Positions 6,281 through 9,371 of a stretch of DNA of 64,000 bases are shown piece after piece. Every line of letters begins with the position of its first letter. Position 1 is the first letter of the stretch. The position numbers and the translations under genes are program-made. Source of the DNA: Burkholderiaceae bacterium (GTDB lineage: Bacteria; Pseudomonadota; Gammaproteobacteria; Burkholderiales; Burkholderiaceae_B); assembly GCA_021208885.1 (NCBI GenBank), contig JAJOJF010000048.1, positions 1 to 64,000 of the forward strand. Direction: 5' to 3'. The notes beneath the pieces were generated by a model. It made no database searches, was not told where the DNA came from, and saw only the letters and a list, made by a program, of their open reading frames with translations.

Positions 6281-6562
6281 TGGTATGGCTTTAAAAACGG
6301 TATCTGAAATTGCATGGCAGTTTTAAAGTCGTAATAACCAATGATGTTTTCGAGTGCAGACGAGGTCTGGGCTTTAAGTCTACTGACTAACCGCGAAGAC
6401 TCAGGCCGCCCTGCAAACGTTTTTGGGGCGTGCTGTTGACTGATAGGCCGTCGTTTGAAACCACTCAGAGGACTCTGGGGCGTAATGAAGTCAGCAAGTC
6501 AATTGAGACTTAGGTGAGCCATCGCTCCAGAAAAAAGTTTATTGAAAATCAATGTGTTAAAT

Positions 6563-6684
6563 GTGGTGCGCAGAACCGGCCTCAAAAGCCGCATGGATAA
6601 AGGCTTTGCGTGAGATTGGGGAAAGGTTGTTGTTCCCCACGCAAAATTTCACTTCGGTGTTAGCAGGGCGCAACAGGGACAATC
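6563..6684. repeat. Direct repeat copy 1 (tRNA-Leu 3'-end-like)
   Basis: 122-bp repeat matching 8035-8156 without gaps; by my count about 100 of 122 positions agree. It opens with GTGGTGCGCAGAACCGG, a diverged copy of the 3' end of tRNA-Leu(UAA), read antisense, found intact at 9281-9298. It contains an inverted repeat, TTTGCGT...GGGGAA with TTCCCC-ACGCAAA. It sits before the nuclease gene. Known tRNA-targeted islands leave such 3'-end copies at the distal edge, so an attachment-site role is inferred. Confidence 0.75.
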
Positions 6685-6938
6685 GGGGAAATGAAGTAAA
6701 ACCGATTCTGTAGCATTGAGTCCGGCGCCCTATAAGCCGTGGTTTTCGTATGCATCAACATTCTCACGATCTAGGGTATGACCTAGGTCGCGCAGATGGT
6801 CCGTTCAGATCCAACCCGGCAAAGACTCGTGAGCGTGATCAACTACACTGGATGCCGAGTAAAGGCGATGATCACTGGATTTGACTGGATGTGTTTGGCG
6901 AACAGTTTGAGGCTTTCCACAGTCGCCGAAGGGAACGC

Positions 6939-8023
6939 ATGAGTACTGAAAAATCTTTGTCACATTTGAATAAATCTCAGGATGAGTTAGAGCCTCTTTT
7001 GACTGATTTACGGCGATTGGTCATTGAAGCACGCGACCGTGCCCTGAGAGCAGTTGATGTCGTTCAGGTTCAGACCTATTGGCAGCTTGGACGTCATCTG
7101 GTGGAGTTTGAGCAGGGTGGTTCGCCGAGAGCCGAGTACGGCAAGCGGCTGCTTCCTCTCGTAGCAGACCGGTTGACTGCCGAGTTTGGCAAAGGTTTTG
7201 ATGTGTCAAATCTGCGCAATATGCGGCTCTTTTACAAGTCTTTCCCAAAATGTGACGCACTGCGTCACGAATTGAGCTGGACCCATTATCGTATTTTGTC
7301 TCGGGTGCAAAGTGAGGAGGCGCGTGTATGGTACATGTCCGAGGCTGCTGAGCAAAACTGGAGCTCACGAGTGCTAGAGCGACAAATAGGCACGCTGTTT
7401 TATGAACGATTGCTTCTGAGCCAGGATAAGGCTTCGGTCGCTCGTGAGGCCGAGCACAATATCGCCAAAGTCGAGTCTGCTCCACGTGCCTTTGTGCGGG
7501 ACCCCGTCATGCTCGAGTTTCTGGGCCTGCCTTCAAGCGGTAAGCTGTTGGAGTCCAGCCTCGAGGAGGGCTTGATGGACAAGTTGCAGTCGTTTTGCTG
7601 GAACTTGGTAAGGGGTTCGCCTTTGTCGCGCGTCAGCAGCGAGTCAGCACAGAGAGCAAGGATTTTTACATCGACCTGGTCTTTTATAACTATCTGCTGA
7701 AGTGCTTTGTTTTGATCGACTTAAAAACTGCTGAGCTGACGCACCAGGATATCGGCCAAATGGACATGTATGTTCGCATGTATGACGACTTAAGGCGTGG
7801 CAAAGACGATAACCCCACTGTTGGCATTCTTTTGTGTGAAGACAAAGACCATTCCGTGGCCAGATATTCCGTGCTGCACGGCAGTGAACAATTATTTGCA
7901 AGCCGCTACAAGTTGATCCTGCCAAGCGAGGAGGAATTGAGATCTGAATTGGCTCGTGAAGCAGAGGCCATACGAGCCGTGATGAGACTCGACGAGAAAG
8001 AAATTGACCTAAGCAAGTATTGA
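6939..8023 (+). pseudogene. DUF1016/YhcG PDDEXK nuclease, frameshifted
   Basis: Two overlapping ORFs (6891-7700 and 7595-8023) are one gene. The first carries the DUF1016 N-terminal helical domain (YWQLGRHLVEFEQGG, LSWTHYRILSRV); the second carries the nuclease domain (FYIDLVFYNYLLKCFVLIDL...). The family sequence ...LQSF-LLELGKGFAF... is restored by adding one T to the TTTT run at 7593-7596. ATG 6939 is preferred over GTG 6891 because AAGGGA precedes it at good spacing. The catalytic core is otherwise intact and near full length, so the lesion is recent, a sequencing error, or bypassed. DUF1016 proteins often lie near restriction and other defence genes; none is adjacent. It sits between the two 122-bp repeats. 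Confidence 0.85.
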
Positions 8024-8034
8024 TCGACCTAAAG

Positions 8035-8156
8035 GTGGTGCCCGGAACCGGATTCAAAAGCTACATGGATAAAGGCTTTGCGCCGATTTGGGGAAATAAA
8101 TTTGTTCCCCATGCAAAATTTCACTTCGGTGTCATCAGGGCACAACAGGGGTAATC
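8035..8156. repeat. Direct repeat copy 2 (tRNA-Leu 3'-end-like)
   Basis: Second copy of the 122-bp repeat, 12 bases after the nuclease stop and before fic. Its first 18 bases, GTGGTGCCCGGAACCGGA, are identical to the 3' end of the intact tRNA-Leu at 9281-9298 in the same orientation; beyond that the match fades. The inner hairpin GGGGAA/TTCCCC is conserved with copy 1, and the outer arm is shorter (TTTGC/GCAAA). No gene is seen in 8157-8333. Confidence 0.78.
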
Positions 8157-8333
8157 TGGAAAAGCAGCTGACATTTTCTTCGTGTGATCCAATCCCCAAG
8201 TTAATGCAGTGACGAGTAGTGACGGTGCCACTTCACTGTCGGGGTTTTGCACGGCCACGGCTTCTCTGCGCGAACAGAGTTCGCGTATGATGCCAATCGT
8301 TTTGATTCCTAGAACACAGCTGGAGCATTTTGG

Positions 8334-8966
8334 ATGAGTCGCTACACGGTTCATGGTGATGAGGGTGAGTTTCAACCTGGTTCAGATGGCTTGGTTCTAC
8401 GCAACAGGGTCGGCATCGTTTCTCTTGATGAGATGAATGAACTGGAATTCGAATTACTGGCTCAACTTTACGAAAGCATTCTTCTTGCAGATTTTCCGAA
8501 TCGTGTTCTATCAATCGAAGATATCAAATCCTGGCACCTACGTTGGTTAGGTAACGTTTACGACTGGGCTGGACAAGAGCGATCGGTCAACATGTACAAA
8601 GGGGGATTCGCATTCGCTGCGGCAGGACAAATTCCAACATTGTTGGCGCAATTTCAGAAGGATTGCCTTGAGCGTTGGACTCCATGCGTTAGCTTGTTCG
8701 GCGAACATTTGGTCGAAGCGATAGCTGTGACCCACGTGGAGCTGATACTGATCCACCCTTTCCGGGAGGGTAACGGTCGCCTATCGCGTTTATTGGCAGA
8801 TGTAATGGCTGTGCAAGCTGGCCTTGAGCCCTTGGATTACAGCTATTGGGAGGCCAACAAAGACGACTACATTAGTGCGATTCATCAAGGCATGGCAATG
8901 AACTATGAACCGATGAAACAATGTGTGAGGTTGGCTATGCGTCAGAGTTCGACGGCAACTACATAG
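8334..8966 (+). CDS. Fic-domain AMP-transferase-like protein
   Basis: 210 residues. The Fic motif HPFREGNGRLSR (about 138-149) is complete, with the catalytic His, the anion-binding loop and the terminal Arg. WHLRWLGNVYDWAGQERSVN is typical of the Fic fold before the active site. Family members transfer AMP from ATP to hydroxyl side chains of target proteins, and many are toxins. No clear inhibitory [S/T]xxxE[G/N] helix is seen within the protein, which fits a class I Fic needing a separate antitoxin. Start supported by GGAG eight bases upstream. A small ORF on the other strand overlaps its last 8 bp. Confidence 0.88.
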   Translation: MSRYTVHGDEGEFQPGSDGLVLRNRVGIVSLDEMNELEFELLAQLYESILLADFPNRVLSIEDIKSWHLRWLGNVYDWAGQERSVNMYKGGFAFAAAGQIPTLLAQFQKDCLERWTPCVSLFGEHLVEAIAVTHVELILIHPFREGNGRLSRLLADVMAVQAGLEPLDYSYWEANKDDYISAIHQGMAMNYEPMKQCVRLAMRQSSTATT

Positions 8967-9132
8967 CCAACTTGATGTTTACAAAACGACGCTTGGTAGG
9001 ATCTTTTAATTTTTGCTCGAGCGCTTGAACGTTTTGTCCGGTTTCAACAGCAGTAGAGCTAGCAACGGCACGCCGAACCGAGGCAAGGCTTGGCTTCTTA
9101 TGAGTCGAGATCGACTTTTTTCCTGATTCCAT
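8959..9132 (-). CDS. Candidate Fic antitoxin, 57 aa, convergent with fic
   Basis: Open frame of 57 codons below the ORF-track cutoff, ATG 9132 to TAG 8959, overlapping the fic 3' end by 8 bp tail to tail. The peptide is basic at the N-terminus, then SVRRAVASSTAVETGQNVQA and a charged C-terminal half. The segment SVRRAVASSTAVET resembles the inhibitory helix of class I Fic antitoxins such as VbhA (family motif [S/T]xxxE[G/N]): here S-T-A-V-E-T keeps the Ser and Glu but has Thr for Gly/Asn. Known class I antitoxins are encoded upstream on the same strand, so this arrangement would be unusual. No good ribosome binding site is seen; read-through from tRNA-Leu on the same strand could transcribe it. 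Function is inference. Confidence 0.5.
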   Translation of the reverse strand: MESGKKSISTHKKPSLASVRRAVASSTAVETGQNVQALEQKLKDPTKRRFVNIKLAM

Positions 9133-9280: not shown

Positions 9281-9298
9281 GTGGTGCCCGGAACCGGA
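9281..9298. other. Putative attachment core inside tRNA-Leu 3' end
   Basis: GTGGTGCCCGGAACCGGA spans the CCA end, acceptor strand and T-arm start of the minus-strand tRNA-Leu. It recurs exactly at 8035-8052 and imperfectly at 6563-6580, always in the same orientation. This is the pattern left by site-specific integration at a tRNA 3' end. No integrase gene is present in either unit. Confidence 0.55.
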
Positions 9299-9371
9299 AT
9301 CGAACCGGTACGACCGTTTTAGGGTCGGCAGATTTTAAGTCTGCTGTGTCTACCAATTTCACCACCCGGGC
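9282..9371 (-). tRNA. tRNA-Leu(UAA)
   Basis: 90 nt including encoded CCA. Acceptor GCCCGGG pairs with TCCGGGC; the anticodon stem GCAGA/TCTGC closes loop CTTAAAA with anticodon TAA; a long variable arm is present; the T-loop is TTCGATT. A TAGAAT box lies about 10 bases upstream of the 5' end. Downstream a weak hairpin (CAAT/ATTG) followed by TTTTTT may terminate it. Confidence 0.95.

Follow-up and report, generated by a model that had tools for sequence, protein, structure and literature searches.

A Fic toxin gene and a convergent small gene as a very probable toxin-antitoxin pair whose antitoxin family is undescribed

The window analysed here, 64,000 nucleotides from the start of contig JAJOJF010000048.1 of a Burkholderiaceae bacterium, carries a fic gene that meets, tail to tail, a 57-codon ORF on the opposite strand (MESGKKSISTHKKPSLASVRRAVASSTAVETGQNVQALEQKLKDPTKRRFVNIKLAM; Table 1). 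The initial annotation had described the two coding sequences as overlapping by 8 bp and the small ORF as carrying an SxxxET motif, and both details are correct, with S26 and E30 lying in the segment RRAVASSTAVETGQ. Upstream of fic, a DUF1016/YhcG nuclease gene (PADLOC PDC-S02; 6891-8023) that a frameshift has broken into two ORFs (6891-7700 and 7595-8023) sits between two copies of a 134-nt repeat. This repeat opens with a copy of the 3' end of tRNA-Leu(TAA) and holds a GGGGAA/TTCCCC hairpin; this genome has 17 copies, which point the same way on each contig and often lie 1 to 2 kb apart, and sister genomes have 0 to 9. The genes between copies include toxin-antitoxin or defence genes (Abi_2, PIN, YafQ, AbiE and DUF1016) as well as some metabolic ones (L113, L114 and L115 are among these sites), and the repeat sites look like a cassette array. 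An integron cassette was considered and rejected, as no integron integrase above the cut-off is found in the genus and the repeat has no attC boxes by eye. The integrase matches in the genus are probably XerC/D-like, since control genomes show them too.

Table 1. Positions of the gene pair and its flanking features in the window
Feature	Position	Strand	Remarks
134-nt repeat, second copy	6558..6691	+	Beyond the neighbouring DUF1016 gene
134-nt repeat, copy upstream of fic	8030..8163	+	Flanks the module; tRNA-Leu 3' end copied at its start
fic toxin gene	8334..8966	+	210 aa; PADLOC PDC-S04 model PDLC04839
FIC signature HPFREGNGRLSR	8754..8789	+	Within fic; includes R152
Tail-to-tail coding overlap	8959..8966	.	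8 bp; from coordinates of fic and the small ORF
Candidate antitoxin gene	8959..9132	-	57 aa; ATG start; convergent ORF conserved in ~52 loci; dN/dS ~0.1
S26-T-A-V-E30, SxxxE core of proposed inhibitory helix	9043..9057	-	STA[IV]ETG in all intact-Fic loci; predicted helix 16-31
tRNA-Leu(TAA)	9282..9371	-	149 bp upstream of the antitoxin start; bears a short sequence repeated at 8035

The Fic protein of the window matches the Pfam Fic domain PF02661 (1.6e-16), and its complete FIC motif has the canonical HxFx(D/E)GNGRxxR form of class I Fic proteins. R152 and the HPFREGNGR core are invariant in all 17 aligned Fic proteins of the subfamily, and R152 is the second arginine (R2) of the motif and the expected partner of the inhibitory glutamate. 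An internal [ST]xxxE[GN] motif is absent from 16 of these 17 proteins, including that of the window, by motif scan. The AF2 model (pLDDT 88, pTM 0.86) finds its best fold match in VbhT (3shg), with EcFicT-EcFicA (5jff) also among the best, and a tree of 41 Fic proteins has a branch (93/94; one change) that sets the 17 subfamily members apart. Because the FIC motif is intact, we infer from the sequence that this protein is an AMP-transferase toxin without a built-in brake.

The small peptide was searched by tblastn beside close relatives of this Fic taken from viral contigs and bacterial genomes. It lies antisense directly behind fic in all fetched relatives except a degraded fragment (L051), and every intact Fic of the subfamily, at about 52 distinct loci (a hand count from the locus table), comes with a convergent small ORF bearing an invariant STA[IV]ETG. 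These loci range over beta- and gammaproteobacteria, E. coli islands and conjugative plasmids, with hosts that include Serratia, Yersinia, Kluyvera, Citrobacter, Salinisphaera, Lysobacter, Alcaligenaceae and Deefgea. The module is present in 35 of 5426 complete E. coli genomes and in 22 plasmid records, one of which is a conjugative IncHI1B/IncP Salmonella plasmid. The stop codons of pairs in Enterobacterales nearly always interlock by exactly 4 bp; the window has its 8-bp overlap, and some loci are gapped, with 48 bp between the genes at L023 and up to 116 bp at L022.

RefSeq independently calls the small gene of E. coli as a CDS ("hypothetical protein", WP_096835729.1). Between enterobacterial copies, the differences at codon positions 1, 2 and 3 number 395, 343 and 1502, with a mean dN of 0.097 and a mean dS of 0.875 (dN/dS ~0.1), and within the genus of the window dN is 0.008-0.039 and dS 0.05-0.24. 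Because of this codon-position bias and the low dN/dS, selection must act on the peptide: the 57-codon ORF is a real protein gene under coding selection. The initial annotation had asked whether the small ORF is conserved beside homologues of this Fic, and it is, at all of the ~52 intact loci. Neither of the two outcomes named there as speaking against the pair occurred, as intact homologues that lack the small ORF did not turn up and the frame is conserved along with the DNA.

The occurrence of the two genes is strikingly one-sided. Among 399 genomes sampled evenly across the phylum, each of the 6 carriers of this Fic (matches with E <= 1e-30) also has the small gene, which is found alone in only 2 further genomes (hypergeometric p 5e-12), and neither this sample nor the ~52 intact loci include an intact Fic of the subfamily without it. 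The small gene itself persists where fic is broken or gone, at 15 to 20 loci. It outlasts fic in two sister genomes (L063 and L065) and in a second copy in the genome of the window (L002/L061), and the same is seen on viral contigs (L091, L092 and L094), on plasmids (L122 and L123) and at L057, L060, L118 and L119. At L117 and L119, which lie 3.5 kb apart in one genome, the same neighbour gene stands with and without a fic remnant, and the antitoxin gene is present in both. The motif variants ETD, ATALETG and STVLSTG occur only beside a broken fic or in a degenerate duplicate, so that the motif is altered at 3 of 19 loci with broken fic versus 0 of 52 with intact Fic (p 0.017). The distance matrices of Fic and antitoxin are closely correlated (Mantel r 0.92), as linkage alone would also produce. 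The intact toxin thus strictly depends on the presence of the antitoxin gene, which is the genetic signature of a toxin-antitoxin system.

Several loci depart from the simple pair. At L059 (1149-1659), the antitoxin gene is duplicated in tandem behind a Fic with HPFRERNGR, and the outer copy has lost its glutamate (STVLSTG) and has an in-frame stop. At L057 (1498-2969), the start of an orphan antitoxin gene overlaps the end of an intact, co-directional hipA by 4 nt, and at L118 and L119 orphan antitoxin genes are placed after RHH-GNAT toxin pairs. We rejected the reading that these antitoxins belong to the HipA or GNAT toxins: the neighbour gene of L119 is also present at L117 in that genome, there with a fic remnant in between, and the copies beside hipA and GNAT genes therefore look like orphans after fic loss. 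From their position, a wider role of the small gene is conceivable but improbable.

The small protein is predicted to consist of a disordered N-terminus, a helix at residues 16-31 and two short helices (model pLDDT 74), with S26 and E30 near the end of the long helix. This SxxxE at the helix end is the most conserved stretch of the protein and invariant wherever fic is intact. The residue after the glutamate is threonine in every member, and because of it the segment misses the published [S/T]xxxE[G/N] consensus by one residue. Its STAIE core is the same as in class II Fic helices of these genomes (ASTAIEGN, SSTRIEG) and closer to them than to the SxRLEG of FicA. The family has no match in Pfam, NCBIfam, PHROG, PADLOC or PDB, and a structure search with the model (pLDDT 74) gave no significant fold match. 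No profile similarity to VbhA/YhfG was found by hhalign with only two template rows; a search for the VbhA family in the class gave one match above the cut-off, too few for a good profile. The likeness to the inhibitory helix of VbhA/FicA antitoxins seen in the initial annotation thus holds for the SxxxE helix segment, but not for the following residue or the nearest relatives of the core.

Two further features of the family were noted. A Leu-Ala pair at or close to the C-terminus is invariant in all 27 aligned antitoxins, some of which end exactly in LA; this could be a protease-recognition tail. A phage ORF on an IMG/VR contig with dUTPase and ribonucleotide reductase genes (L095:1957-2244) carries RSVATSTAIETGEKWQDIEKRL ahead of a zinc-ribbon-like phage family (phrog_23579), and its relative in Vibrio phage phi 3 is without the RSVATSTAIETGEKWQDIEKRL part; as a single case, the ORF is a possible phage-borne mimic of the Fic antitoxin.

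In class I Fic systems, the glutamate of a small protein's inhibitory helix binds the second arginine of the FIC motif (PMC5033356, PMC8401265, PMC3667792). By analogy, the 57-residue protein encoded opposite fic would bind Fic and set its SxxxE helix beside the active site, where its glutamate would pair with R152 and block productive ATP binding, as VbhA does on VbhT; the Fic protein would be toxic and the small protein would neutralise it. The proposal of a convergent Fic toxin and antitoxin with a segment resembling an inhibitory helix is supported by the layout at the ~52 intact loci and by the SxxxE in the predicted helix. We consider it quite likely that the module is a Fic toxin-antitoxin pair with class I-type inhibition, a new antitoxin family in reversed position and a separate promoter for the antitoxin.

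It is improbable, yet the best of the alternatives, that the small protein neutralises Fic otherwise than by an active-site helix, by destabilising the toxin or altering its activity, e.g., in a deAMPylase complex. The strict genetic linkage is uninformative about the mode of neutralisation, and the residue after the glutamate deviates from the inhibitory-helix consensus. There are also possible precedents, as the downstream 47-aa antitoxin AS1 of Sofic possibly acts on toxin stability (PMC12249575) and Fic-1-AntF is described as a deAMPylase (PMC13327609). Against such a mode, the conservation of the small protein peaks precisely at the SxxxE of the helix end, and its STAIE core equals that of class II inhibitory helices.

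The pair of toxin and helix-bearing antitoxin compares with known systems as follows. Similar to class I FicTA modules (VbhA-VbhT and EcFicA/YhfG-EcFicT), it combines a canonical Fic that has no inhibitory helix, with a model closest to 3shg and 5jff, and a small separate SxxxE partner. Known class I pairs have the antitoxin gene upstream and co-directional (PMC5033356, PMC3667792), a contrast drawn in the initial annotation that we could reproduce: an upstream co-directional [ST]xxxE[GN] ORF precedes 10 of 22 outgroup Fics scanned but none at 48 loci of the subfamily, and in all intact loci the antitoxin gene is convergent and downstream. Unlike class I antitoxins, that of the window thus lies behind and antisense to fic rather than upstream in an operon; it further differs by the threonine in place of G/N, the separate promoter that the family appears to have and the lack of profile similarity to VbhA/YhfG in the comparison with two template rows. 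Class II helices of the SoFic/FICD type share a nearly identical STAIE/SSTRIE core, but there the helix is part of the Fic protein itself. The closest published precedent for a Fic antitoxin encoded behind the toxin is Sofic-AS1 (PMC12249575). Sofic is a class II Fic of two domains that contains an inhibitory helix itself, and the small AS1 gene lies downstream of it; the likeness lies in a small antitoxin gene downstream of Fic, with AS1 compared by its description. The window Fic, in contrast to Sofic, consists of the Fic domain only, with neither an N-terminal inhibitory helix nor a C-terminal domain. A convergent Fic antitoxin was not found in the literature searched.

How the two genes are expressed can be read in part from their surroundings. 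In most homologues, the antitoxin start is preceded ~25-30 nt upstream by a sigma-70-like promoter. The upstream DNA of enterobacterial antitoxin genes is unrelated except for TTGCNA-17-TAGAAT-like boxes, mostly ending 24-30 nt before the ATG, and Alcaligenaceae and Serratia have TATAAT/TATACT 23-27 nt before it. Because such boxes stand shortly before the ATG in most homologues, the antitoxin usually appears to have its own promoter, as judged by consensus matches. The two genes would thus be expressed separately, the antitoxin from this promoter and fic from upstream. Read-through from tRNA-Leu, proposed earlier as the source of antitoxin transcription, is not supported as a rule: no tRNA accompanies the module at the sister locus L065, and a promoter-like sequence precedes the antitoxin gene in most homologues; it is possible in the window, where a promoter scan gave no good match for either strand. 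tRNA genes (Leu, Lys or Met) stand upstream of the antitoxin gene on the same strand in the window and at L002, L055, L034, L038, L043 and L032, and such neighbours in unrelated loci are what one would expect of modules that sit where islands targeting tRNA genes end.

In Enterobacterales, a tyrosine integrase gene often ends 4 bp ahead of fic, whose expression would then be in line with that gene; this gap suggests that toxin output is linked to integrase expression. The same 4-bp spacing is seen on enterobacterial islands and plasmids at L120 (4731-6821) and L121. That the small protein serves a mobile element, for instance as an excisionase, and is encoded beside fic because the two genes share the end of an integrated island, would fit the integrase gene directly before fic in most Enterobacterales loci and the tRNA genes that adjoin several loci, but we reject it as highly improbable: the window and the non-enterobacterial loci have no such integrase while the pair of fic and small ORF is constant, and every intact fic keeps the small gene in any setting.

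The two mRNAs may pair at their 3' ends, as the initial annotation suggested. Convergent genes with overlapping 3' ends suit antisense control, and in E. coli a terminator-like hairpin behind fic sits inside the antitoxin gene, yet it is likewise highly improbable that an antisense transcript rather than the peptide controls fic in a type I-like manner, given the selection on the peptide described above, coding overlaps of usually only 4-8 bp (and gaps at L022 and L023), and antitoxin genes that remain after fic loss.

For the preferred toxin-antitoxin pair, the antitoxin is too small for an obvious DNA-binding domain and the stops interlock head-on; for these reasons, polymerase collision or antisense pairing might conceivably replace operon autoregulation, so that convergent transcription sets the balance of the module, although we regard this as unlikely. 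If true, transcription entering fic, e.g., from the integrase gene during excision, would lower antitoxin output.

The window pair is thus very probably a real, ordinary-sized Fic toxin-antitoxin pair in an unusual arrangement, and brings to the Fic toxins an antitoxin family that has no name yet. Its Fic matches PADLOC model PDLC04839 at E 1.9e-87 and so shares the label PDC-S04, which we take to denote a single-gene candidate defence system; unlike PDC-S04 as listed, it belongs to a two-gene module. A PDC-S04 gene was tested and had no effect (PMC12409345), but this may be another Fic than that of the window, since the label spans several Fic models. The "single-gene" candidate has a second, essential-looking gene, and clones or knock-outs of fic only would miss the antitoxin. 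Kept across beta- and gammaproteobacteria, the convergent layout offers a natural way to test if the balance of toxin and antitoxin is governed by how the genes are arranged.
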